Under the pieces are notes generated by a model. That model searched no databases, had not been told where the DNA came from, and saw only the letters and a list, made by a program, of their open reading frames with translations. From Yersinia alsatica (GTDB lineage: Bacteria > Pseudomonadota > Gammaproteobacteria > Enterobacterales > Enterobacteriaceae): a stretch of DNA of 64,000 nt. The stretch is taken from assembly GCF_902170305.1 (NCBI RefSeq), contig NZ_CABHWW010000026.1:310001-374000 (forward strand), written 5' to 3'. Both the position numbers and the translations under genes were made by a program. Of the stretch, positions 3,470 through 16,269 are shown piece after piece. Within the stretch, counting starts at the first letter, position 1; each line of letters starts with the position of its first letter.

Positions 3470-4837
3470 TCAGTTGCAGGCGACTATCTTGATTGCCAGC
3501 CCACCGCGAGACGTTTCACGATATTTTGAGTTCATATCTTTGCCGGTTTCATACATCGTTTCGATGACTTTATCCAGACAGACACTTGGCTCACTAGTCC
3601 GACGCAGCGCCATCCGAGCGGCATTAACCGCTTGCACGGCGGAAATGGCATTACGCTCAATGCAAGGCACCTGAACTTGCCCGGCCACAGGGTCACAAGT
3701 TAGCCCCAGATTATGCTCCATGGCGATTTCAGCGGCGATACAGACCTGAGCAGGGCTACCTCCCATTAACTCAGCCAAACCTGCTGCGGCCATTGAACAG
3801 GCAACCCCGACTTCCCCCTGACAGCCCACTTCTGCGCCAGAAATAGATGCGTTCATTTTATACAGCGCACCAATAACCCCTGAAACCAGGAAATAACGGC
3901 TGTAAGAGTTTTCATTCACTGGGCGAATGAATTTATCGTAGTAAGCCAAAACCGCAGGAATAATACCGCAAGCCCCGTTAGTCGGTGCTGTGACCACACG
4001 CCCGCCCGCGGCATTTTCTTCGTTAACCGCTAAGGCATACATATTGATCCAATCAACCACCATCATTGGGTCAGCATTATGCTTATCCGTAGTGACCAGC
4101 ATCCGGCGCAATGCCGCGGCACGGCGCGGCACTTTCATCGGGCCGGGTAACAGGCCTTCAGTATTAATACCGCGCTCAATCCCCGCTTGCATCACCTCCC
4201 AGATCGCCGCAAAGTGCGCGCTTATCTCGGCTTTACTGTGCAAAGCCAGCTCATTTTGCATCACTAAACCTGATAAAGATAAACCGGTATCTTTACAGTG
4301 TTTTTGCAGATCGCGGGCAGAATTGAAGGGATAGGGCACGGTCACTGCGTGGCTATCTTGCTGACCAAACTGAGTTTCATCGACAATAAACCCGCCGCCG
4401 ATGGAGTAATAGGTTTTGCTGTAAATACAGTCATCACCAGCATGTGCACTGATGGACATGCCATTTTCATGCAGTGGCAAATTGGTTTCATGGAAGTTCA
4501 TGCCACCCACTGCCGGGAAATCAACTTCATGGCTACCATTAGCCAGTAACAGGCGTTCCCGCGACTCTACATCACGGATAAATCCTTGTATTGCATCAAT
4601 ATCAACGGTATCAGGCAAGTTACCCGCCAGCCCCATGATAATGGCGATATCAGTATGGTGACCTTTACCAGTCAGAGACAGAGAGCCGTAAACATCAACA
4701 GTGATTCGGGTGACGGCAGGAAGATGTCCTAGTGTGATTAAATCATCGGTAAACAGCTTGCCGGCTTTCATTGGGCCGACGGTGTGGGAGCTGGATGGAC
4801 CAATACCAATCTTGAAAATGTCAAAAACGCTGACCAT
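3470..4837 (-). CDS. sdaB: L-serine dehydratase (L-serine ammonia-lyase, Fe-S type)
   Basis: A 455-aa, single-chain iron-sulfur serine deaminase that converts L-serine to pyruvate and ammonia. The N-terminal beta domain starts with the family signature GIGPSSSHTVGPMKAG. The C-terminal alpha domain carries conserved Gly/Cys segments (APTNGACGIIPAV, GCQGEVGVACSMAAAGL) with the 4Fe-4S cluster cysteines. The length fits E. coli SdaA/SdaB. It lies downstream of the serine transporter sdaC on the same strand, as in the E. coli sdaC-sdaB operon, which favours sdaB over sdaA. A GGAGG ribosome-binding site precedes the ATG at 4837. The 3' end abuts the ERIC-like array. Confidence 0.92.
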   Translation of the reverse strand: MVSVFDIFKIGIGPSSSHTVGPMKAGKLFTDDLITLGHLPAVTRITVDVYGSLSLTGKGHHTDIAIIMGLAGNLPDTVDIDAIQGFIRDVESRERLLLANGSHEVDFPAVGGMNFHETNLPLHENGMSISAHAGDDCIYSKTYYSIGGGFIVDETQFGQQDSHAVTVPYPFNSARDLQKHCKDTGLSLSGLVMQNELALHSKAEISAHFAAIWEVMQAGIERGINTEGLLPGPMKVPRRAAALRRMLVTTDKHNADPMMVVDWINMYALAVNEENAAGGRVVTAPTNGACGIIPAVLAYYDKFIRPVNENSYSRYFLVSGVIGALYKMNASISGAEVGCQGEVGVACSMAAAGLAELMGGSPAQVCIAAEIAMEHNLGLTCDPVAGQVQVPCIERNAISAVQAVNAARMALRRTSEPSVCLDKVIETMYETGKDMNSKYRETSRGGLAIKIVACN

Positions 4838-4918
4838 ATATTCGCCTCCTTCATGTTAAAGGCGTTATACCCATGCTGGGTAATATTATTAAAATGCTTA
4901 CATTACCGTGGAATAGAG

Positions 4919-4943
4919 AGCCGGCGCGGACGCACCGGCTTTT
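4919..4943 (-). terminator. Hairpin in the sdaC-sdaB gap
   Basis: A 6-bp stem, AGCCGG (4919-4924) with CCGGCT (4935-4940), lies between sdaC and sdaB. On the transcribed minus strand it is not followed by a T-run, so it may be a partial terminator, an mRNA-stabilising hairpin or a processing site. Confidence 0.3.
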
Positions 4944-5006
4944 GAAACAATTTACAACGTCAGATGATGGTTGTGAGCTGGCCGTGAGCACTGGCCAGCC
5001 TCTAAA

Positions 5007-6302
5007 TCATTTACCGAACAGGCTGAACAAGATTGCAGAGATAGCAATCAGGCCCATGATGACGACGAATACGTTGCTGATGTGACCGCTGTATTTGCGC
5101 ATCGCAGGAACTTTATGGATTGCATACATTGGCATCAGGAACAGCAGCATTGCGATGATTGGGCCACCCAATGTTTCAATCATGCCCAAGATGCTTGGGT
5201 TCATGGTTGCTACGATCCAGGTTGTCACCAGCATGAACAGTGCAGTAATGCGGTTCAGTTTGTCATGATTGATGGCTTTGCCTTTGCTACGCAGAGACTT
5301 GATCATCATCCCGTTAAAGCCTTCACGTGCGCCTAAGTAGTGGCCCAGGAAAGATTTGGTGATAGCGATAAAGGCAATGACCGGAGCCATATAGGCAATC
5401 ATTGGGGTATTAAAGTGGTTAGCCAGGTAAGACAGAATAGAGATATTCTGGCTTTTTGCTTCAGCCAAATCAGCCGGAGACAGGCTCAGTACGCAGCTGA
5501 ATACGAAGAACATCACCGTAACAACCATCATGATGTGAGCGAAAGCCAAAATGCGGGAGCATTTTTTCTCAGCCTCAACACCGTACTCTTCACGTTTTGC
5601 TACCGCAAAGGCGGAAATGATCGGGGAGTGGTTGAACGAGAATACCATCACCGGAATCACCAGCCATAGGGTCATCCACAGGCCACTGCCAGTCCCATTG
5701 CCATCCATTGATACATGTTCAAATATCGCACCTGACCAGTTAGGGATCAGATAGACCGCCAACAGCATCAATACCGCGACAAATGGGAAGACCAGAATAC
5801 TCATTGCTTTCACAATGGCATGCTCACCAAAACGCACGATAGTCATCAGGCCGATGATCAGAATCAGCGACAGAATGGCACGTGGGGGTGATGGCAGATG
5901 CATCTGGTGTGTGATGAAGCTATCAACAGTGTTGGTAATTGCCACACTGTAGACCAACAAGATTGGGTAGATAGCAAAGAAGTAAAGCAGAGTAATCAGC
6001 TTACCCGCGCCTTTACCAAAATGCTCTTCAACCACTTCAGTAATGTCTTCACCCGGATTTTTACCTGACAGCACAAAGCGGCACAGGCCACGGTGAGCAT
6101 AAAACGTCATCGGGAAAGCGATGATAGCCATAACGATAAGAGGCAGAAGGCCGCCGATACCCGCGTTGATTGGCAGGAACAGTACGCCAGCACCGATTGC
6201 TGTTCCGTACAGACCCAACATCCACATGGTGTCGGTTTTACGCCATGTGCTTGATGAAACTTTTCCCGTGGAGGCAATAGTGCCTACTTGAGTAGTGTCC
6301 AT
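5007..6302 (-). CDS. sdaC: Serine/proton symporter
   Basis: A 431-aa inner-membrane amino-acid permease of the HAAAP (serine/threonine) family that imports L-serine with protons. The sequence contains about 11 hydrophobic segments. The N-terminal part has the conserved [21 protein letters not shown] stretch, in which a glycine-rich unwound helix binds substrate. It is upstream of sdaB with a 169-bp gap, so uptake and deamination of serine are probably coupled in one transcript. The upstream 1.1 kb is unusually long and AT-rich for this genome. Confidence 0.93.
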
Positions 6303-7440
6303 GAAAAATCTCCATAGTGAACACGTTAATTTAAAATTAAGAACCGAAAGTTAGGCTCCTGTAATGCTTTATTTAGCGACATTATCAGGCGAAAAATTCA
6401 GTCTAAACGATTCGTCTAAAATGGTGCCCTGGTTATTACGTTGGTGCCGTAGTCGCGTGTTATACCTAAAAGTTAAAGTGCAAAAATTAACCGATTGTAA
6501 GAGTGTGAATTCGTTTTATCGGATATTTTTATTGTTCTGATAAGAACTCTAGTTTTTGCTGGCGGCAAGATAGCGATTTGTAGTGAAAACTACCGTGATC
6601 CTGCTCTCAAATGCTCAATAAACTCGCCGACGATCACTTGTTACGAATTTACATCTGATTGTTGTGTTAATGTTTATTTTTTATCACTAAGGATAATAAA
6701 TAAGCATTCTTTGCACTGTTCAATAAATAAACAATCAGATTTTCATCCTCTCTATCTTGGTGGGAAATATATTTTAACCACGCTTATGAATCTAGTTAAA
6801 ATCAAGTTTTTCACTGATTTATTGATGAATATCATTAATGTAAAATAATGATATTGAATTAACTAATTGATTTTAAATGACTTTATCTTTTTTCTGTTAT
6901 CAGTATGGCTGCTGATACCTGGCGGTAATATAAACAGTTAAATAAGACAAAAATGAAAGGTTTATTGCTGAATTAAATAAGTCAGTGAGTGACTATTTGC
7001 ATTCCATGGTTTATTTGTCATATGAAATATTGTGATGATTATTTGTCTGACAATATAACTGTCGCTATTTCTTGGCATAGATGTATTAAAAAGAATGACA
7101 AATGTTAAATTAATTTACCTTAAGCTCAGTTATTACTGGCACTTAATTATGGAATGAAATTGTGTTTTAAATTTTTTATAGATTAAAAATCATATTAAGC
7201 ACAAATAAAATAGGGTTATAACCCCTTGGCTTATTTTGCTTAAATATAATACGTTTTTTAGATAATACACCTCTATCGTATTCATCCAGTATTTACACAA
7301 TTAAGATTTTTGCTATGTAATCAAGGCGATCTGTCAGCGAGCGACTAAATCAGTATTTAGAGCGGAAAAAATCCCATGCCAACGAGATGACGCGCATCTC
7401 ACTAGCAAGGGAAATAATCAGTGGGGCAGGGCGTGCGGGC
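6303..7440. other. AT-rich intergenic region without a recognisable gene
   Basis: This 1.14-kb gap separates sdaC from deoR. It is visibly more AT-rich than the flanking genes and contains no protein-like reading frame on either strand. The only clear structure is a GGGTTATAACCC palindrome around 7213-7224, flanked by an imperfect AAGCA...TGCTT inverted repeat. It may hold the sdaC promoter and binding sites for global regulators, or degraded DNA. No specific site could be assigned. Confidence 0.6.
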
Positions 7441-8205
7441 TTAACAGTAGGTTTTAATACTATGCTGTAAAAAGAATTGGCTGAATTCATCATCAGGTTG
7501 GCGATCAGTCACCAATGCATCAAAGAGGGTCAGAGCGCCAATACTGGCAGGTTTTATTTTGCCGAACTTACTGTGGTCAGCGACCAGAATTTTATGCTGG
7601 GATTTGGCAATCGCCCGTTGCTTCAGTAGGATCTCGTCGAAGTTGAAACACGTTGCGCCGTACTCAATTGAAACACCGGCTGCGGAGATAAAAGCTTTAT
7701 TCGGGCAGGCGTTGTCTAGTTCATTGTGCTGGCTGATAGGGGTGAAAATGTAGTTGTTAGGCTTGAACTCGCCACCACACAGGATCACTTTACAGTTAGG
7801 TTTATCTTGTAAGGAAAGAAAAGTGTTGAGGGAGTAGCAAATGGCGGTAAATGACAGTTCTTCATCTATTTCGTCAATGATTGATGGAATTGTGGTGCCA
7901 CAATCAAAAAAAACAGTGTCATTCTCGGCAATAAGACGTGCTGCCAACTGACCGATGCGGCGTTTTTCTTCCACCTGCTTGGCTTGTTGGTCCGAAACAA
8001 AATAGTTATTGGCGTTATTGCTTTTTGGGTCCATCACCACGTAACCGCCCAACAAAATGACGGCAGTAGGTTCAGCGCTAAGATCTCGGCGAATGGTCAT
8101 TTCAGACACGCGCAGCAGATTGGCGGCGTCTTTTAGATGGATTTTGTCGGAACGCTTAAGGGCCTGAGTAAGTTTATTAATTCGTTCAGCACGGCGGGTT
8201 TCCAT
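7441..8205 (-). CDS. deoR: Deoxyribose operon transcriptional repressor DeoR
   Basis: A 254-aa DeoR-family repressor, close in length to E. coli DeoR (252 aa). The N-terminal winged HTH includes the segment LKDAANLLRVSEMTIRRDL (about residues 24-42). The C-terminal sugar-phosphate sensor domain keeps the FFDCGTT and SAAGV motifs typical of the family. DeoR represses nucleoside and deoxyribose catabolism and is released by deoxyribose-5-phosphate. Its neighbour is deoC, which carries a DeoR-like operator. It lies downstream of dacC as in E. coli, although sdaCB has been inserted between them. Confidence 0.9.
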   Translation of the reverse strand: METRRAERINKLTQALKRSDKIHLKDAANLLRVSEMTIRRDLSAEPTAVILLGGYVVMDPKSNNANNYFVSDQQAKQVEEKRRIGQLAARLIAENDTVFFDCGTTIPSIIDEIDEELSFTAICYSLNTFLSLQDKPNCKVILCGGEFKPNNYIFTPISQHNELDNACPNKAFISAAGVSIEYGATCFNFDEILLKQRAIAKSQHKILVADHSKFGKIKPASIGALTLFDALVTDRQPDDEFSQFFLQHSIKTYC

Positions 8206-8353
8206 AAGCTATTCCTGACAAGTTATTTTCAAAACCAAATATTGCGCACAACTCTTTGTAATGCAATCTAAAACAAGCTATTACAAAACAAAAAACAGAG
8301 TAAAACAGTCGATGGCAATAATTAAGCCCGACAAGCGCCGGGCTTACAATAAT

Positions 8354-9025
8354 TTAGTAACTTGATGCGGAGGCGGACTGGCCTGAAACGATGGCCACTC
8401 CTGAACTGGTACCAATGCGTGTCGCGCCAGCTTTAATCATGGTTTCAGCTGTTGCTTGGTCTCGAACTGCACCGGATGCCTTAACACCCATGACCGGGCC
8501 GACTGTGGCACGCATCAATTTTACATGTTCTTCTTTCGCGCCACCGGTGCTGAAACCGGTTGAAGTTTTAACAAAAGCGACGTCAAGCTCACGGCAGATA
8601 TCACAAACTTGTACAATTTGTGCATCGCTAAGCAGGCAAGTCTCTAATATTACTTTCAACGGTGTTGCGCCGCAATTATCACGCACAGCCTTGATGTCAG
8701 CTTTAACTTCATCAATTTTGCCGCTTTTTAACCAGCCAACATTGATAACCATATCAATCTCTTGTGCGCCAGCCTTGATAGCCGCTTGAGCTTCAAAGGC
8801 TTTTGCTTCGGTCAGACCGGCCCCCAGAGGGAACCCAATTACTGAGCATACTTTTACTGGGCTACCCGCCAGTTGCTGTGCCGCCAGGGGAACATAGCCA
8901 GAGTTAACACATACAGTATAGAAATGATGCTGTTTAGCTTCTTCACACAACTTAATGATTTGTGCTTCAGTGGCATCCATTGCCAGTAGGGTATGGTCAA
9001 TGTAGCTAGCGTAATTGATCGTCAT
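8354..9025 (-). CDS. deoC: Deoxyribose-phosphate aldolase
   Basis: A class I aldolase of 223 aa that splits 2-deoxy-D-ribose 5-phosphate into glyceraldehyde 3-phosphate and acetaldehyde. The Schiff-base lysine lies in [12 protein letters not shown], and the conserved [10 protein letters not shown] and [14 protein letters not shown] motifs are present. The ATG at 9025 is chosen because AAGGA precedes it and it matches the family start ([14 protein letters not shown]). The upstream in-frame extension is low-complexity AT-rich sequence. The gene stands next to its regulator deoR instead of inside a deoCABD operon; no deoA, deoB or deoD is in the window. Confidence 0.93.
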
Positions 9026-9063
9026 GATTATTATCCTTTTGTTCATCTGTAAGTTAGTTCTGT

Positions 9064-9079
9064 TGTTATAATAATAACA
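9064..9079. promoter_or_regulatory. Putative DeoR operator upstream of deoC
   Basis: The 16-bp palindrome TGTTATAATAATAACA lies 38 bp upstream of the deoC start. It matches 13 of 16 positions of the E. coli deo operator TGTTAGAATTCTAACA. Its position and the adjacent deoR gene make repression of deoC by DeoR likely. This is inferred from sequence. Confidence 0.65.
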
Positions 9080-9299
9080 TTTAAAAGAAAAAACAAAGAT
9101 AATTCTCACAAATATGGCTATTTTAGATTTTATTTTGTTATTTTAATTACATTGATGGCGATTAAATAGACAACAGATACACTTAATTGAAGTGTATCTG
9201 ATTGAATTTTATTGGTTTTAAATAGAGTGGTATTTTTGACGAGAGAGATTGCCGGTCTTTTCGCTTACCGGCAATGTGAGATAAGTAACGTGCGGAGGA

Positions 9300-9908
9300 T
9301 TAGCTTCTGACCCATCCTCTACTGATCGGCAAGGCAAAACTTACGTGATAAAGACGCTGCATACCATTCGAAATAGCTTCCCCGAATAAATTCCACACTA
9401 GCTGTGCGAACAAGCAGCCGACAATCCCTAGCAGGAAGGCTCCCACCATATCTAATGGCCAGTGAACACCCAGATAAATGCGTGACCATGCAATGGCGAC
9501 CGCCACGATCATCATGCTGACTGCCGACCAGAGTTTGTGCCAGAAAACAAAGGCTAAGGCCACGGTAAAAATAGCGGTGCCGTGATCGCTCGGGAAAGAA
9601 CTGTCCGGTGAGTGCGGTAAAAAGTTATAGCCAAAACCCACCACGAAAGGTCGATCATGGGGAATAAGCATGCCAATACAAGTGGCTGATAGCATGGAGA
9701 ATGCAAGGGCAATGGCAGCTTTAGTGACCATGGTGCGCTGCATATCCATAGTGTTTTTCGGCCCCCATAGCCACAGCCCTATGAGCAAAATAGGGATAAT
9801 CATAATGAGATCGCGTGCGATAAAAGTCGCAAAAGAAATTATCCACGATGGTGATGCTGGAGTCGCATTTATCATGGAAAAGAAAAAGTAATTCATTTGT
9901 TCCATCAT
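9300..9908 (-). CDS. ybjG: Undecaprenyl-diphosphatase, PAP2 family
   Basis: A 202-aa polytopic membrane protein that closely matches E. coli YbjG, one of the undecaprenyl pyrophosphate phosphatases that recycle the lipid carrier for peptidoglycan. The PAP2 phosphatase motifs are visible: HDRPF in motif 1, PSDHGT in motif 2 and SRIYLGVHWPLD in motif 3. Five to six hydrophobic segments surround them. The start overlaps the end of the upstream PAP2 gene by 4 bp, so the two are probably translationally coupled. Confidence 0.88.
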   Translation of the reverse strand: MMEQMNYFFFSMINATPASPSWIISFATFIARDLIMIIPILLIGLWLWGPKNTMDMQRTMVTKAAIALAFSMLSATCIGMLIPHDRPFVVGFGYNFLPHSPDSSFPSDHGTAIFTVALAFVFWHKLWSAVSMMIVAVAIAWSRIYLGVHWPLDMVGAFLLGIVGCLFAQLVWNLFGEAISNGMQRLYHVSFALPISRGWVRS

Positions 9909-10675
9909 TTTGTACCTTTATCGCGGTGGTAAAAACCGCTAATCATCCAAAACACAGCCAACTGGCTGAGCCATACCCACCAACCTGCCCACAGGTTGTG
10001 AGTAAGAAAATGTGCCCCACGCATAATTTGACCAAACCCCATCAACATGCCAAGGCTGGCACCGACGAACCAACACAGTGTGGCCAATCGCGGGCGCTCT
10101 GGGTAAAACAAGAAAAACAGTGCCATTACTGCAAAACCGCTGGATGCATGGCCACCGGGGAAGCAGTGGCCGGGGCCTGCACCGACTGGGGCCGTCCCCA
10201 TCAATACGTAGCTCAGGGATTTACCGCCGTACTCCACCAAATCCCAAGGGCAGGAGTGCGCGCTGGTGGCTTTTAGAATACCGATCACCAATGGGCCGAT
10301 ACCCAGCAGCAACATGGTGGTCACCAAGCGCCCATTGCGACGATAAATGCCCCATAACAATGTGACGATCGCCGCACTGATAATGCTCAGTTTCAGTAAC
10401 CGGTGGTTAAGTAAATCCAGCCAGTAATTATTATCCCACGGAAAATTCTGGCCAACCGGGTCAAACCAGTAATTACTGATAAACCAATCCAGTTGCTCGT
10501 TGCGGGACAACCACAGAAACAGCAATCCGCTGATCAACAACCCAAAAACCTGCCAAAAATAAAAGGATAACGGCAGTGAGTAAAGGGACTTTGTCCTAAT
10601 TATCTGTACCGTTGAGGTATTATTTAATATAGACATAGTTGCGTTTGATTGAGCGGGCAGTTTGTTGGTCTTCAC
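9905..10675 (-). CDS. Membrane-associated PAP2 phosphatase
   Basis: A 256-aa polytopic protein with PAP2-superfamily features: SAHSCPWDL in place of motif 1, PGGHASSGFA as motif 2 and RGAHFLTHNLWAGWW as motif 3. It probably dephosphorylates a membrane lipid or lipid-linked diphosphate; the substrate is not evident. This variant lacks the classical RP of motif 1 and resembles a branch of uncharacterised acid-phosphatase-like proteins. GTG at 10675 is the longest start, and ATG at 10636 is a possible alternative; neither has a strong ribosome-binding site. It overlaps ybjG by 4 bp and is the first gene of that pair. Confidence 0.75.
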   Translation of the reverse strand: MKTNKLPAQSNATMSILNNTSTVQIIRTKSLYSLPLSFYFWQVFGLLISGLLFLWLSRNEQLDWFISNYWFDPVGQNFPWDNNYWLDLLNHRLLKLSIISAAIVTLLWGIYRRNGRLVTTMLLLGIGPLVIGILKATSAHSCPWDLVEYGGKSLSYVLMGTAPVGAGPGHCFPGGHASSGFAVMALFFLFYPERPRLATLCWFVGASLGMLMGFGQIMRGAHFLTHNLWAGWWVWLSQLAVFWMISGFYHRDKGTK

Positions 10676-10783
10676 GAAATGGCCTGAAGCAGAGGTTTTG
10701 ATGTTGATATTGTGTTTATTTTGTCTTAAGAAAGCCTTAAGGGCTGATAGCGAAGGGGATTACAGCAGGACTCAAATTCCAGA

Positions 10784-10799
10784 CAAGAAAAAACCCGAT
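10784..10799. mobile_element. Left attachment-site core (attL) of the island
   Basis: The 16-mer CAAGAAAAAACCCGAT is repeated exactly at 16185-16200, the rybB terminator. The flanks are also similar (AAATTCCAGA here, GAATTTCAGG on the right). It lies 77 bp beyond the 3' end of int, the arrangement used by P2-type phages. On this side only half of the terminator hairpin is present, as expected after integration into a terminator. Confidence 0.7.
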
Positions 10800-10875
10800 A
10801 GTCTCATTACTCTATATAAAACAACAATATACAATAAATACAGTGAGTTAATTAGTTATTGAGGGGTAGTAAATA

Positions 10876-11925
10876 CTAGGGAAGGGTAACCTCCGCCGCC
10901 ACTTTGCCGCCAGTGCTCATGGTGGTTAGCGGATTGAACTGTACAGCGGTTTCTAGGTGCTCTGGCGCGAAGTGAGCATAACGCATTGTCATCTGAATAT
11001 CACTGTGGCCAAGGATGCGCTGTAATACCAGAATGTTGCCCCCGGACATCATAAAGTGAGCGGCAAAGGTGTGGCGCAAAACATGCGTGAGCTGGCCAGC
11101 AGGTAACTTAATGTCTGTGGTGTTGATTGCCGCCATAAAGCGGAAATAACACTCACTGAAAAGCCGGTCTCCCTCTAACGCGATTAACTCGTCATGAAGT
11201 TCTTTGCTGATTGGCACACTGCGGTTCTTTTTACCTTTGGTTCTGACAAAAGTAATTTTGTGCGGGCTAACCTGTGAGCGGGTGAGCTTTTCTGCTTCAT
11301 TCCATCGCGCCCCGGTACTGAGGCAAACTTTAACTACCATAGGTAAATCTGCCCGGCCAAAACTACATGCGGCCAATAGTGTTTTAATCTGTTCATGAGT
11401 GAGCCACGCCATCTCTTTTTCTGCCACGGCATACTTGCGCAGATTGTCTAATGGGTTCGGTAGGTTCCATTCGCCTAATCTGGCCAACTCGCTAAACATA
11501 CCGCTCAAAAAACTTTGTTCCAGATTCACGGTGACTGGCTTTGCGCCTTTCTTCCATTTCTCTGAGAAATAAATCTCGCCAGACAAACGCTTAGAGCGAT
11601 AGTGAGCAAAATCTTTGCCACTCAAACTGTGGGCAGGGGGATCACCCAGTGCGGCAACTATCAGTTTCAGTTTTTTATAAACCTTTTCACCGGCCTCTAA
11701 AGAACGGCCGTGCAGGTTATACCAAAGTTCGGCAATTTCGCTTAATGTGCGGCGGTCTGGTGCGTCCCCTAACCAAGGCTTATTACTTACCTGATCCATG
11801 GTGTATCGTTCAAAGGCTAACGCTTCACCTTTGGTCGCAAACATTTTTCTTACCCGGCGACCTGTACGGCCTGCCGGGTAGCACTCACATAACCATTGGC
11901 CTGTTGGCTGTTTGCGTACTGACAT
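10876..11925 (-). CDS. int: P2-family tyrosine recombinase (integrase)
   Basis: A 349-aa site-specific tyrosine recombinase. The N-terminus has the compact arm-type domain of P2-like integrases, then a core-binding domain (about 60-160) and a catalytic domain (about 173-330). The catalytic residues are visible: R207 (GARWNE), H281 and R284 (THVLRHTF), H307 (LGHSDI) and the nucleophile Y316 (MRYAH). It appears intact. It would integrate or excise the surrounding element at the 16-bp repeat. Its ribosome-binding site is enclosed in a strong hairpin (11931-11953), suggesting low or controlled translation. Confidence 0.9.
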   Translation of the reverse strand: MSVRKQPTGQWLCECYPAGRTGRRVRKMFATKGEALAFERYTMDQVSNKPWLGDAPDRRTLSEIAELWYNLHGRSLEAGEKVYKKLKLIVAALGDPPAHSLSGKDFAHYRSKRLSGEIYFSEKWKKGAKPVTVNLEQSFLSGMFSELARLGEWNLPNPLDNLRKYAVAEKEMAWLTHEQIKTLLAACSFGRADLPMVVKVCLSTGARWNEAEKLTRSQVSPHKITFVRTKGKKNRSVPISKELHDELIALEGDRLFSECYFRFMAAINTTDIKLPAGQLTHVLRHTFAAHFMMSGGNILVLQRILGHSDIQMTMRYAHFAPEHLETAVQFNPLTTMSTGGKVAAEVTLP

Positions 11926-11930
11926 TGATA

Positions 11931-11953
11931 ACCCCCTTTGAAGATAAGGGGGT
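11931..11953 (-). promoter_or_regulatory. Hairpin enclosing the int ribosome-binding site
   Basis: On the minus strand, ACCCCCTT (from 11953) can pair with AAGGGGGT (11938-11931) over 8 bp with a 7-nt loop. The AAGGGGGT arm is also the Shine-Dalgarno sequence, 5 nt before the int ATG. It may block translation, or partly terminate transcripts coming from the upstream repressor/cargo genes. Confidence 0.6.
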
Positions 11954-12040
11954 ATTTAACTGTATGAATGAACAGTGGTCAATGTTTGATATTATCAATA
12001 AAAAGATTGTAATTGGACAGCAATACATAATCTAATTCAC

Positions 12041-12586
12041 TTAAATACTTTGAAGCCCACTAATGAACACATTATAACTATGGGAAAGATTACCATGTAT
12101 TCTTAATACTTTCCCAATAGCCCTAGAGCCGGCTACTTTTTGATATGAGTGATTAGTGAGTTTAATCAACTCTTCTGCCGCATTTGCTAAGTTATCGGGA
12201 GTCCTAAATTTTCTATTATTCTGTTGGGGGGTTGTATTTAGGTTTAGCGCTTGATCAACCGCAATCAAATCACCTAGATACCAACTTTCTAGTTCATGAC
12301 AGGCTATACGTATTAAATAACTCTGCTTACCGGATGCAGCGCATAACATTAATAGCCGCTGTTTTATTGTAGGGCCATCTCCACCATCTTTATCTCGGAT
12401 AATAACAAATGTTGTATTAGGTGTTTGCCATCCTCTCAGTTTTTTTGTTAATTGTTTTTCAAGATCATTTTTACCTTCAAATGCAATATATCGGACAGTT
12501 ATATCACCCGGAATAACTCTTGGAACTAAGCCTTTTAACATTTCAGCGGCAGATAACTCTTCAAGTAAAAAGACAATAGTTCTCAT
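12041..12586 (-). CDS. DUF4276-like TOPRIM protein, partner of an ATPase
   Basis: A 181-aa protein. It has an N-terminal acidic motif (LLEE, E9-E10), an IIRDKD motif (D65, D67) and a CHELESWYLGD segment (E98-D106). This spacing of a Glu followed by DxD is typical of TOPRIM nuclease folds, and the ELESWYLGD segment resembles DUF4276 proteins. The start overlaps the stop of the upstream ATPase gene by 4 bp, so the two are almost certainly made together. A nuclease effector role is inferred from paired systems such as PARIS (AriA/AriB) and RloA/RloB. Family membership was judged by eye and needs an HMM check. Confidence 0.65.
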   Translation of the reverse strand: MRTIVFLLEELSAAEMLKGLVPRVIPGDITVRYIAFEGKNDLEKQLTKKLRGWQTPNTTFVIIRDKDGGDGPTIKQRLLMLCAASGKQSYLIRIACHELESWYLGDLIAVDQALNLNTTPQQNNRKFRTPDNLANAAEELIKLTNHSYQKVAGSRAIGKVLRIHGNLSHSYNVFISGLQSI

Positions 12587-13782
12587 TGAGGGTCAACTCC
12601 AGGGAAGAATCCTTGCTTCCAAAGATATCCCATCTTGTCGCCATCATTCATATAAGCAACAAGTTGAGTATCTTCTTTTGCTCTATTTGCAGTTGTATAA
12701 CCTTGATTCTTTGACAACCAAAAAACTTCGTCAATACCTACTGCATTTAGAAAATCAGGTGAATGTGTTGAGACGAAAACTTGGCCACCTCTAGTAGTAT
12801 ATGCTCTAAATTCTTCAGCTAATTCTGTTAATAATTTAGGGTATAATTGGTTTTCAGGTTCTTCAACACAAAGTAATGGGTGAGGAGTGGGATCATGTAA
12901 TTGTACTAAGTACGCAAACATTTTTAATGTACCATCAGACACAAATCTGTCGATAAAAGGGTCTGCAAAACTCCCATCTTGAAAACCTAATAAAAGTCTA
13001 CCGTCTTGTGTACTTATTGGTTTTACGTCAGAAACACCAGGAACTCTATGTTTCATCGCAGTAATTATTTCAGCGAATATCTCAGGGTAATTGTCATGAA
13101 TATTTCGAGCAACTAGTTGTAAATTATCACCAGTGGCAGATAGGTGATCTTCGTACCCTACAGCATCTTTTGTTCCTCTGGCTGCGTTAATATGAAAATC
13201 TGAAACATGCCAATTTTCAATTAATTGTCTGAAAGCACTTGCAGCCTTAAATTTAGAAAACTGGCCAAGCCCTTTTATTGCTAGAACATCATCGGAATCA
13301 AGAATTTGTTCTTCTCTATTAAGCTCCTCATCTTTTTTACTAAAGTCATCTTCATTAATAATGGCAGTCCCTTTTCCCTTAGAAAAATCAAGAAAATGAT
13401 AAGGGGAACCATATGGGCCACGCTTATAACGGAGTATCTCTCTATCAACATAAGTTCTTTTTTTTGCATCTTCATTTAATTTTAAAATATATGTGACTAA
13501 ACGTTCATAGCCACTAATTTCTAGTCTGAATTTTACTTCAATCTCGATTGTTCTATTATTAAAATCTGTTCCTCTACTAAGAACCTCATTAAAACCTCCC
13601 CGCCTTTGTATCGCATTTCTAACATTGTATGTCAGACAGTCTTTGAGGAAGCCAAATACATCAAACAAAGTTGTTTTCCCAACCCCATTAGCCCCTACAA
13701 TCACACAAAATTTCGGAATGTCATTCATTTCTAAATTCTTGAATGATTTGAAATTTTTTAATTTAACTGATTCTATGAACAT
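12583..13782 (-). CDS. AAA (ABC/SMC-like) ATPase of a putative defence pair
   Basis: A 399-aa RecF/OLD-like ATPase. It starts with the family pattern MFIESVKLKNFKSF and has Walker A GANGVGKT (30-37), a signature-like SDGTLKMFAYL (282-292), Walker B LLCVEEPE (303-310) and an H-loop VSTHSPDF (337-344). The region between about 90 and 220 is the expected coiled/insertion segment. No TOPRIM domain is fused; a separate TOPRIM protein overlaps its 3' end. It begins 13 bp after the CI repressor stop, so it is probably transcribed with the repressor. It is more AT-rich than the chromosomal genes around it. Anti-phage function is an inference. Confidence 0.75.
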   Translation of the reverse strand: MFIESVKLKNFKSFKNLEMNDIPKFCVIVGANGVGKTTLFDVFGFLKDCLTYNVRNAIQRRGGFNEVLSRGTDFNNRTIEIEVKFRLEISGYERLVTYILKLNEDAKKRTYVDREILRYKRGPYGSPYHFLDFSKGKGTAIINEDDFSKKDEELNREEQILDSDDVLAIKGLGQFSKFKAASAFRQLIENWHVSDFHINAARGTKDAVGYEDHLSATGDNLQLVARNIHDNYPEIFAEIITAMKHRVPGVSDVKPISTQDGRLLLGFQDGSFADPFIDRFVSDGTLKMFAYLVQLHDPTPHPLLCVEEPENQLYPKLLTELAEEFRAYTTRGGQVFVSTHSPDFLNAVGIDEVFWLSKNQGYTTANRAKEDTQLVAYMNDGDKMGYLWKQGFFPGVDPQ

Positions 13783-13795
13783 ATGTCCCTTGATT

Positions 13796-14371
13796 TCAAT
13801 TAGTAATTAAAAACATGGATTTTATTGCAATAAGGAAATTGATATCTTCTAACCTACAATCAAAAGAAAACTTCCCGCCTTCAACCCTCACTTTGCCACC
13901 GGGAATCCGGATAATATCTCGGACGCTGATTGTTCCCTCAATATCAACAACCCATTTGCCATCCTGTACTTCATCGAACTTGCGATCAGCAATATAGGTA
14001 ATATCCCCATCAAGGATAACTACCGGGTCTTTTAATCCGTCAGGCAAGAACGCCTTATCGAACATATAGAAGTTTGAATCGTAGAGTTTGCCGTCTAACA
14101 ACTTTTGGCGAGGAATCTGCACGATATCAAGCTGTTTAGCATTTTCATACATTACGCCCTCGCCAGTCGTTAACCAACGTAGTGATGCGCCAGTCTCTAA
14201 AGCACACTGAATCACAAGGTCTGCGGGAAAAGTATCACGTAGATAACGGTTGGCTAATGTACTGGCAGATATGCCTAATTGCTCACATAAAGCCTGCTTT
14301 GTACTGAAGCCATAAGCCTCCAGCATCCGGTCAATTGCCGCTTGGCCACCACGTCGAAGATCCATGTTCAT
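13796..14371 (-). CDS. Phage CI-type repressor (186/P2-like)
   Basis: A 191-aa repressor. The N-terminal HTH has the phage CI pattern (IDRMLEAYGFSTKQALCEQLGISASTLANR region, about 13-42, with WLTTGEG following at about 66-72). The C-terminal part resembles the oligomerisation/S24-like region of CI repressors. It should keep the element lysogenic by binding three related sites at 14367-14438. Two in-frame ATGs (14371 and 14365) overlap operator 1, so the repressor could block its own expression. The genes downstream on the same strand are the ATPase/TOPRIM pair and int, forming a lysogenic transcription unit. Confidence 0.85.
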   Translation of the reverse strand: MNMDLRRGGQAAIDRMLEAYGFSTKQALCEQLGISASTLANRYLRDTFPADLVIQCALETGASLRWLTTGEGVMYENAKQLDIVQIPRQKLLDGKLYDSNFYMFDKAFLPDGLKDPVVILDGDITYIADRKFDEVQDGKWVVDIEGTISVRDIIRIPGGKVRVEGGKFSFDCRLEDINFLIAIKSMFLITN

Positions 14372-14438
14372 CTCGAAAAGTGAAGTTTATTTATTGACAT
14401 TCACTTTTCGAGATATTAAATTCATCTCGAAAAGTGAA
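14367..14438. promoter_or_regulatory. Three CI operators and the rightward early promoter
   Basis: TTCATCTCGAAAAGTGAA occurs at 14367-14384 and 14421-14438, and the same motif occurs inverted (TTCACTTTTCGAGAT) at 14400-14414. A plus-strand promoter fits here: TTGACA at 14394-14399, 17 bp, then TAAATT at 14417-14422, so the middle operator fills the spacer. Operator 1 covers the repressor start codons. Repressor binding would therefore shut off cox expression and regulate the repressor itself. Confidence 0.75.
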
Positions 14439-14498: not shown

Positions 14499-14669
14499 AT
14501 GAGACCTAATATTTCAATCACTCTTCTAACTCCTCACGTCACAGTTGAGAGATATGGCGAGTTGACTGGTTTAGATTCAGACACTATCAAAGCGATGTTG
14601 GCCGATGGTCGTTTGACACGCCAGCCACGCCCCGCGCACGTAGCAGAACACGCCACGGAAGAAACGTAA
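14499..14669 (+). CDS. Small Cox/Apl-like phage regulatory protein
   Basis: A 56-aa protein (MRPNISITLLTPHVTVERY...), with AGGGG upstream of the ATG. The segment TVERYGELTGLDSDTIKAML has the pattern of the small winged-HTH excisionase/Cox/Apl proteins that lie opposite the repressor in P2 and 186. It is the first gene of the rightward early transcript and the operators overlap its promoter. It is shorter than P2 Cox or 186 Apl (about 90 aa), so it may be a truncated relative. Function is inferred mainly from position. Confidence 0.6.
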   Translation: MRPNISITLLTPHVTVERYGELTGLDSDTIKAMLADGRLTRQPRPAHVAEHATEET

Positions 14670-14671
14670 TC

Positions 14672-14878
14672 ATGACGGAAACGGCACTACACCGCACCCG
14701 CCTGCACACTTTGCGTTATAAAGTTTTTTCAGTTTTATTTTTCTACAAAACATCCCGCCAGCCCGCGCCGTGGCTGGGGCTTTGCGGCGTTTCGCCAACT
14801 GAAAAGATTGAAAAGAATTTCAATGTTTTTCAGTTTTTGGATCTTGGAGTGGATCGCGTAAAAGTATTAGTGCATTGA
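14672..14878 (+). CDS. Short phage-type ORF downstream of the cox-like gene
   Basis: A 68-aa frame that starts 2 bp after the cox-like stop. The middle segment (SRQPAPWLGLCGVSPTEKIEK) looks like small hypothetical proteins encoded after cox/cII in enteric prophages, but I do not recognise a family with confidence. After it, another frame stays open with protein-like composition up to a TAA at 15004-15006, so the original gene may have been frameshifted or replaced. No function is proposed. Confidence 0.35.
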   Translation: MTETALHRTRLHTLRYKVFSVLFFYKTSRQPAPWLGLCGVSPTEKIEKNFNVFQFLDLGVDRVKVLVH

Positions 14879-15140
14879 ATTTAAAGGGGATTGTGTGGTT
14901 TGCGTGGAATGAATTGGATCTCTTTACGCGCTTTTGTTCAATGCGGATAAATGCCACTATGTCAGAGCTGGCGTGGGTTGTGGGGGATTTCACAGACCGT
15001 TTCTAAGCTGAAATTTAAGTGATTAATAGTGTTACTATAGCTACAGATTGATTTGGGTCTATAGGGGCGGATGCTTTCTTGGATTAATTTATGTATGTAT
15101 TATTGAAAGAATATTTTTAGATGACTTTCTGGAGAATACA

Positions 15141-15803
15141 TTGCTAACGGTCTGGGGTCGTAAAACTTCATCGAATGTGCAAGCTCTCATGTGGTGTATT
15201 GGGGAGTTGGATTTACCTTATAAGAGACATGATATTGGGCATCGTTATGGTGGTACTAACACTGACGAGTTTTATCGCTTAAATCCAAACCGTACTGTTC
15301 CTGTTTTACAGGATGGCTGTAATCCTCCTTTATGGGAAACCGGAGCTATACTGCGATATCTTGCTAATCGATATGCAAAAGGGGATTTTTGGCCTGATGA
15401 TTTACTGGCAAGAACCGAAGTTGATCGTTGGATGGAGTGGTCAAAGTTAAATGTCGCATTGGCATTTACGGCACCAATTTTTTGGCGGGTTGCACGTACT
15501 CCCAATGAATTGCATGATATAGAAGCTATCAGATTGGCAGTTGAACAGTTTGAAAATAATTTAATGATTGCCGAAGAAATATTCACCTCTAGGAATTATT
15601 TGGCAAGCGAACACTTCTCATTAGCCGATATTCAATTTGGACATGTTTTGTATCGTTACTATGATATTGATATAAAAAGAAAATCAATGCCATATGTTGA
15701 AGCCTACTATAAACGACTTCTTAATAGACCTGCATATAGTGAGCATGTCGCTATTTCGTATGATGAACTCCGACCCAGCAATGCATACAGCAAGCCTATT
15801 TAA
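15141..15803 (+). CDS. Glutathione S-transferase family protein
   Basis: A 220-aa cytosolic GST. The N-terminal thioredoxin-like domain begins LTVWGRKTSSNVQ, where the Ser residues after the WGR motif are candidates for glutathione activation. It has the cis-Pro segment RTVPVLQDG, then the WETGAILRYLA glutathione-binding helix. The helical C-terminal domain contains FSLADIQFGHVLYRYY. TTG at 15141 is preferred because TGGAG lies 6 nt upstream and the reading then starts like other GSTs; a frame open from 15048 would add 31 unrelated residues. It lies inside the att-bounded island and is more AT-rich than the core genes, so it is probably cargo. The substrate is unknown. Confidence 0.8.
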   Translation: MLTVWGRKTSSNVQALMWCIGELDLPYKRHDIGHRYGGTNTDEFYRLNPNRTVPVLQDGCNPPLWETGAILRYLANRYAKGDFWPDDLLARTEVDRWMEWSKLNVALAFTAPIFWRVARTPNELHDIEAIRLAVEQFENNLMIAEEIFTSRNYLASEHFSLADIQFGHVLYRYYDIDIKRKSMPYVEAYYKRLLNRPAYSEHVAISYDELRPSNAYSKPI

Positions 15804-16165: not shown

Positions 16166-16184
16166 TAATGGTTTGAATTTCAGG

Positions 16185-16200
16185 CAAGAAAAAACCCGAT
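16185..16200. mobile_element. Right attachment-site core (attR) inside the rybB terminator
   Basis: This copy of CAAGAAAAAACCCGAT matches 10784-10799 exactly. On the minus strand it reads ATCGGGTTTTTTCTTG, the 3' stem arm and U-tract of the rybB terminator. The complete terminator is therefore kept on this side and rybB remains whole. Confidence 0.7.
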
Positions 16201-16269
16201 TAGTCTTGAACCTAAGAAGGCGGGACTATCGGGCTCCTCAATATGGGGACATCAAAGAAAAGCAGTGGC
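16189..16269 (-). ncRNA. rybB: RybB small regulatory RNA
   Basis: An 81-nt Hfq-dependent sRNA made in response to sigma-E that represses outer-membrane porin mRNAs. The 5' end GCCACTGCTTTTCTTTGATG followed by TCCCCAT is essentially the E. coli RybB seed region. The molecule ends in an intrinsic terminator with a CCCGATAGTC / GACTAATCGGG stem and six Ts. It is next to ybjL as in E. coli. The loop region is diverged, as expected between genera. The island's attachment core overlaps its 3' end. Confidence 0.92.

Follow-up and report, generated by a model that had tools for sequence, protein, structure and literature searches.

The stretch of DNA studied here, hereafter the window, covers 64,000 nucleotides of Yersinia alsatica (RefSeq assembly GCF_902170305.1, contig NZ_CABHWW010000026.1, positions 310,001 to 374,000). 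Two adjacent genes, coding for an ATPase and for a small protein of the DUF4276 family, were located between the integrase (int) and CI repressor (cI) genes of a P2-like element (Table 1). The two open reading frames (ORFs) overlap by 4 bp and cI lies 13 bp upstream of the ATPase start; these coordinates confirmed an earlier reading of the DNA (the original prediction), which had placed both ORFs on one strand with cI and int. As judged from their sequences, the two genes are a member of the catalogued candidate defence system HEC-01. The locus is real and largely known already, the pair being catalogued under that name in PADLOC. Beside int (49% GC) and cI (43%), the low GC content of the pair (35-36%) fits inserted cargo.

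Table 1. Features of the defence pair and its carrier (positions in the window)
Feature	Position	Strand	Description
HEC-01 ABC ATPase	12583..13782	-	399 aa; OLD/PtuA/Rad50-type head
HEC-01 small protein, DUF4276	12041..12586	-	181 aa; modelled TOPRIM fold
P2-type integrase	10876..11925	-	349 aa
P2-type CI repressor	13796..14371	-	191 aa; Phage_CI_C 5.9e-37, Phage_CI_repr 5.7e-28
Probable CI operator sites	14367..14438	.	three copies of ATCTCGAAAAGTGAA, two direct and one inverted; putative operator role
Cut-down cox	14499..14669	+	56 aa; matches positions 1-46 of the 71-position Cox family, then foreign tail
Right-end segment of sister prophages	14617..14906	.	abuts the broken cox here
Glutathione S-transferase (GST)-like gene	15048..15803	+	within att boundaries, 38.5% GC; outside the defence pair
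attL	10775..10804	.	imperfect 30-bp repeat, 16-bp identical core at 10784
attR	16176..16206	.	imperfect 31-bp repeat, 16-bp identical core at 16185

The assignment rests on nearly full-length matches, well outside what chance would give, to the HEC-01 models of PADLOC-DB 2.0.0. The ATPase was matched by PDLC04144 (2e-208) over residues 1-399 and profile positions 1-395 of 395, and the small protein by PDLC04143 (6.5e-74) over residues 1-180 and positions 1-182 of 190. As these models use the letters A and B both ways, the names ATPase and small protein are preferred here. In Pfam, the two proteins belong to AAA_21 (E 1.1e-32) and DUF4276 (E 1.5e-8; 35.6 bits for a cut-off of 30.2), which bears out the predicted combination of an OLD-like ATPase with a DUF4276 effector. 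Other PADLOC models matched the ATPase far more weakly (AriA 1e-30, mad3 2.1e-25, AbiLi 7.5e-25, GajA 8.6e-17), and the NCBIfam MAD3 model gave 116 bits (1.9e-33), under its cut-off of 420. For the small protein, no other PADLOC system was matched at E up to 1.

HEC-01 is said to be a Hma-embedded candidate from Payne et al. 2024 (bioRxiv 10.1101/2024.01.29.577857). The same expansion of HEC is found in PMC12111858. Several HECs, including HEC-06, are reported active in the portion of PMC12988326 considered, where HEC-01 itself is unnamed, and in the literature library searched the name HEC-01 occurs in five papers, of which one, to judge the other four by their titles, concerns defence and gives it as a list entry (PMC12724379). 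The term DUF4276 did not occur in the literature library searched, an absence limited to that library. The original prediction had read the kind of pair correctly and had left it undecided whether the pair was already described; it is now seen to be HEC-01.

When the small protein alone was searched for in one genome per species (84,980 species), 46 loci from many phyla were obtained, and in all of them an ATPase homologue lay directly upstream on the same strand. The junction of the two genes was ATGA in 32 loci and GTGA in 6 (38 together), so that gene order and overlap are shared with other HEC-01 loci. The distances of the two partners were correlated (r = 0.73 over 41 loci; maximum of 5000 permutations, 0.37). 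The pairing was less consistent in searches starting from the ATPase. Six order-level genomes matched at 1e-40 (own genome included): the small protein was present in five, although in two its match was no better than about 1e-4, and it was missing in L014; among three viral loci, the small protein was present in L063 and was not found in L064 and L065. On the viral contig L064 (6973-9188), the HEC-01-type ATPase overlaps a second ATPase-like ORF upstream, and no DUF4276 gene was found.

Broken copies occur among the loci: in L046, L052 and L058 the small protein is split over two frames, and a number of ATPases are incomplete. The small-protein alignment (A1, 46 rows) was built from 42 of the 46 loci in genomes together with the window, L063, L010 and L012; the three split copies and the partial L062 were left out. 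The ATPase alignment (A2, 48 rows) included 40 of the genome loci and left out L026, L031, L045, L056, L061 and L062, in which the ATPase is partial or broken, as well as the viral L065. In the window, the ATPase carries a Walker A motif (GANGVGKT, residues 30-37), a signature (SDGT, 282-285), a Walker B motif (LLCVEEPE, 303-310) and H340. Residues G30, N32, G33, G35, K36, S282-D283-G284-T285, C305, E307-E308-P309-E310-N311 and H340 were invariant in 48/48 sequences, and thus the key residues of both Walker motifs named in the original prediction are conserved throughout. In the small protein, E9, E10, S12, G38, D41, D65, R93, E98, E100, D106, D131 and S168 were invariant (46/46), residue 67 was an aspartate in 45/46 and position 155 was always basic (R in 41, K in 5); E9/E10 and the D65xD67 motif had likewise been singled out beforehand.

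The small protein was modelled as a TOPRIM fold, and a structure search with the model placed it closest to the nuclease domains of class 2 OLD proteins. The model displays alternating strands and helices, a glutamate after strand 1 and a DxD motif after strand 3. Its invariant acidic residues sit where TOPRIM enzymes hold metal, the residues used for comparison being those of Burkholderia pseudomallei OLD (PMC6755086). From this model, the small protein is probably a two-metal TOPRIM protein and a predicted nuclease. The fold and the conserved pairing in other genomes were the two points on which the original prediction had agreed to stand or fall, and both bore it out, the fold as a model. 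AriB chains were not among the structural matches listed for the small protein, which carries no weight either way. A search of BFVD returned a single match below 1e-3, to a Tupanvirus protein that is uncharacterised, together with one weak row of RloB-like type (E 0.045).

At a threshold of 1e-15, the HEC-01 small protein was detected in 28 of 398 genomes sampled evenly across the phylum (the present genome being one of them), in 20 of the 338 genomes of its good-quality subset and in none of 14 control genomes. It was also absent from all 24 other genomes of the same genus, which suggests that the pair arrived recently in this genome. Its surroundings elsewhere differ from the int-cI position seen here: in L107 the pair lies inside a type I restriction-modification (RM) locus, between hsdS (PADLOC 9.3e-99) and hsdM (by eye), and on pSYSM of Synechocystis PCC 6803, where its proteins are WP_011153560.1 and WP_011153561.1, the neighbours are annotated as a cysteine desulfurase and as a methyltransferase associated with phosphorothioation. 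In L106 (G057, 6246-12617), the pair (7298-9051) sits between a 117-aa copy of an HsdR-like N-terminus (6246-6596) and the full ORF (9270-12617), HsdR being recognised by eye; the arrangement looks like an insertion with a flanking duplication. A survey of 130 neighbouring proteins, all of 100-1000 aa and encoded no more than 2.5 kb from the pair at the 46 genome loci (five longer proteins left out), revealed no dominant partner. The top PADLOC families, models of type II/III methyltransferases, reached 3/130, as did the top Pfam families, and HmaC and DrmD had one match each among the best 25 of 237 families.

The carrier is a deleted P2-like prophage remnant. Between attL and attR, about 5.4 kb hold int, the pair, cI, a cox fragment, the right-end segment and the GST-like gene. 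The intact cox and the replication and structural genes that together mark a complete P2-like prophage between its att sites are not all there, and Cox measures 56 aa for 75 aa in the sister prophage of genome G004; from the short att interval and the truncated cox, a remnant rather than a complete prophage is concluded. The setting proposed originally therefore stands for int and cI, which are of P2 type, and not for the prophage as a whole. Likeness to P2-like relatives stops at 14611-14623 and likeness to the prophage right end starts at 14617 (14624 in G012), two segments that are 26.0 kb apart in G004. At the corresponding site of G019, which is empty, the overlap of the two flanks is 31 bp, and by coordinates an overlap of 30-36 bp was obtained in 12 of the 24 other genomes of the genus. 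The ATCTCGAAAAGTGAA copies lie at and upstream of the cI start; they suggest that the CI operator region survives, and the pair may hence be expressed with cI. A promoter scan was uninformative (12 sites, shuffle mean 15.6), and no promoter is claimed.

The same arrangement was met once more. L063, a 33.9-kb IMG/VR contig, has the order cI - ATPase - small protein - int, with 87% identity to the window for the ATPase and 67% for the small protein, and this arrangement adjoins long ORFs which, by eye, resemble replication and tail genes of phages. When homologues of the window int and cI were sought among ORFs of at least 100 aa in flanks of up to 8 kb at 51 loci (the 46 genome loci, L063, L064, L065, L106 and L107), L063 was the only one to have them near the pair, which is thus carried only exceptionally by a prophage of this type.

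Conversely, the int-cI interval holds other genes in related prophages. In five of the 24 other genomes of the genus (G003, G004, G005, G012, G013), the same site has related int and cI genes that enclose different genes; as judged by eye, G003 and G012 have a broken int. Eleven cargo proteins of these five slots were scanned with PADLOC and ten with Pfam. The cargo matched PDC-M11A (4.1e-133) and PDC-M11B (8.3e-49) in G005, PDC-S20 (2.6e-176) in G013 and, weakly, LeoBC (3.3e-4) in G004, and no PADLOC match was obtained at 0.001 in G003 and G012. Among phage records, the slot was read in 6 of the 128 with a match: KP12 carries a PD-Lambda-1 match (7.3e-120), and 813R9 has a gene that shares its name and length. 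The protein in the slot of 4LV2017 has no match at 1e-5, and the slot is empty in ev040, ev129 and YenM_06.16-2. A cI-int hotspot with variable defence cargo is known from K139-like Vibrio prophages, which are P2-related (PMC9122126); the slot seen here belongs to enterobacterial P2-like prophages. At the right-end segment, G012 has a different ORF (220 aa) where the window has the GST-like gene, and this site may be a second cargo slot.

Two other P2-like regions were noticed in the same genome. In L067 (G000:C11), three CI-like ORFs in tandem (194, 198 and 196 aa) come after another P2-like int (3933-5818, by eye), and beside that int lies a 431-aa ORF (1594-2889) that resembles a RelA/SpoT domain by eye and has no PADLOC match at 1e-5. 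In L066 (G000:C38, 3649-5764), ORFs beyond the int of a second P2-like element match Aga_Nuclease (1.3e-58) and AbiJ (4.8e-16) in PADLOC.

Among characterised systems, PARIS (AriA/AriB, class 4 OLD) also joins an OLD-type ATPase to a separate TOPRIM protein, and the ATPase studied here matches the AriA model as given above. However, it has 399 aa for 464 in AriA chains, and its partner is a DUF4276 protein in which neither DUF4435 nor AriB was matched at E up to 1 in Pfam and PADLOC; PARIS membership was rejected for that reason, and the expected lack of DUF4435 in the effector was upheld. Gabija and class 1/2 OLD were rejected as well: GajA and class 2 OLD fuse ATPase and TOPRIM and come with a UvrD-like helicase, whereas here the two are separate ORFs with cI and int as neighbours and no adjacent helicase. 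WonAB, an OLD-ABC ATPase and nuclease from a Vibrio prophage, is likewise a two-gene operon downstream of a prophage regulator (PMC12137116), but WonB is by description a PD-(D/E)xK variant, whereas the model of the small protein best matches TOPRIM domains. With MADS (MAD3) and AbiL the resemblance is limited to the ATPase, whose NCBIfam MAD3 score is sub-threshold; the small protein matches neither system in PADLOC at E up to 1.

Taken together, we consider, with a probability of roughly 0.7, that the HEC-01 pair is an abortive infection module which entered a P2-like prophage as cargo of its int-cI slot and was kept while the greater part of that prophage disappeared. An assembly of the ABC ATPase would sense infection and act as gatekeeper; the DUF4276 TOPRIM nuclease would remain idle until infection is detected, and would then be released or switched on to cut nucleic acid, so that the infected cell is stopped and the infection ended. 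This sensor-effector model follows the precedent of PARIS, in which AriB is held in a cage of AriA and freed by a phage protein (PMC12409363). The defence reading is based on the nearly full-length PADLOC matches, the TOPRIM model, the invariant acids, the intact ATPase motifs, the pairing, the carriage by mobile elements and within a restriction locus, and the proven defence function of the related pairs PARIS (PMC9122126, PMC12409363) and WonAB (PMC12137116). The analysis itself established family membership, modelled fold, conserved residues, pairing, slot and deleted carrier; we infer a complex of the two proteins and its gating, a nuclease activity with its substrate and trigger, expression driven by the cI promoter, and protection against phage. 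Several results weigh against it. Shared descent alone would also yield correlated partner distances, and three of the nine loci found through the ATPase (L014, L064, L065) have no recognisable small protein. Foldseek support for TOPRIM was modest (6nk8, E 1.2e-3; no PDB match below 1e-3), a PDB sequence search with the small protein, as single sequence and as 46-row profile, returned nothing at E up to 10, and neither E9 nor E10 is followed by a conserved acid at +4, the place of E404 in class 2 OLD.

Within the same module, the substrate could be of two kinds, the proximity of folds leaning towards DNA and the split form towards RNA. The small protein may be an endonuclease of tRNA or another RNA that shuts down translation, a reading held tentatively: in the best known split ATPase-TOPRIM pair, the TOPRIM protein AriB cuts tRNA with a site like that of RNase M5 (PMC12409363), and WonAB halts translation (PMC12137116), but the nearest folds are class 2 OLD DNA nuclease domains and no AriB or DUF4435 match was found by HMM. 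That it would nick or degrade phage or host DNA, like OLD and GajA, is conceivable at somewhat less than even odds; against it, a common fold does not fix the substrate, as the tRNA-cutting AriB illustrates (PMC12409363). A different function, that of a toxin-antitoxin pair maintaining the element, with the small protein as toxin and the ATPase as simple antitoxin, would account for an overlapping two-gene operon on mobile elements that outlasts most of its prophage, and Pfam labels AAA_21 a putative AbiEii toxin of a type IV toxin-antitoxin family. It is nevertheless quite improbable, as the ATPase retains all its catalytic motifs, deletion of either PARIS gene is not toxic (PMC9122126) and WonB is toxic only with WonA (PMC12137116). 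The pair could also be silent cargo of a dead prophage, of no use to the strain; the deleted carrier, the broken cox and promoter sites no more numerous than in shuffled sequence speak for this, but neither frame is shortened and no key residue is lost, and cI and the operator-like repeats upstream of it are still present, so that this reading is unlikely.

HEC-01 is common in the phylum, yet its effector is known by a DUF label alone. The present analysis contributes a TOPRIM model, a set of conserved residues, a survey of the slot and the finding that the carrier is a remnant. A confident TOPRIM model together with named conserved residues makes the mechanism of HEC-01 directly testable. On a wider scale, and with a chance just short of even, DUF4276 as a whole may form a large overlooked branch of TOPRIM effector nucleases near class 2 OLD, in which case HEC-01 would be a split OLD lineage distinct from PARIS that has a trigger and a substrate of its own, and in enterobacterial P2-like prophages the int-cI interval may serve generally as a slot for defence genes, able to persist after the prophage itself is gone. 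The locus represents defence cargo retained within a prophage that lost nearly all else, and it extends to enterobacterial P2-like prophages the cI-int cargo slot described for Vibrio (PMC9122126).
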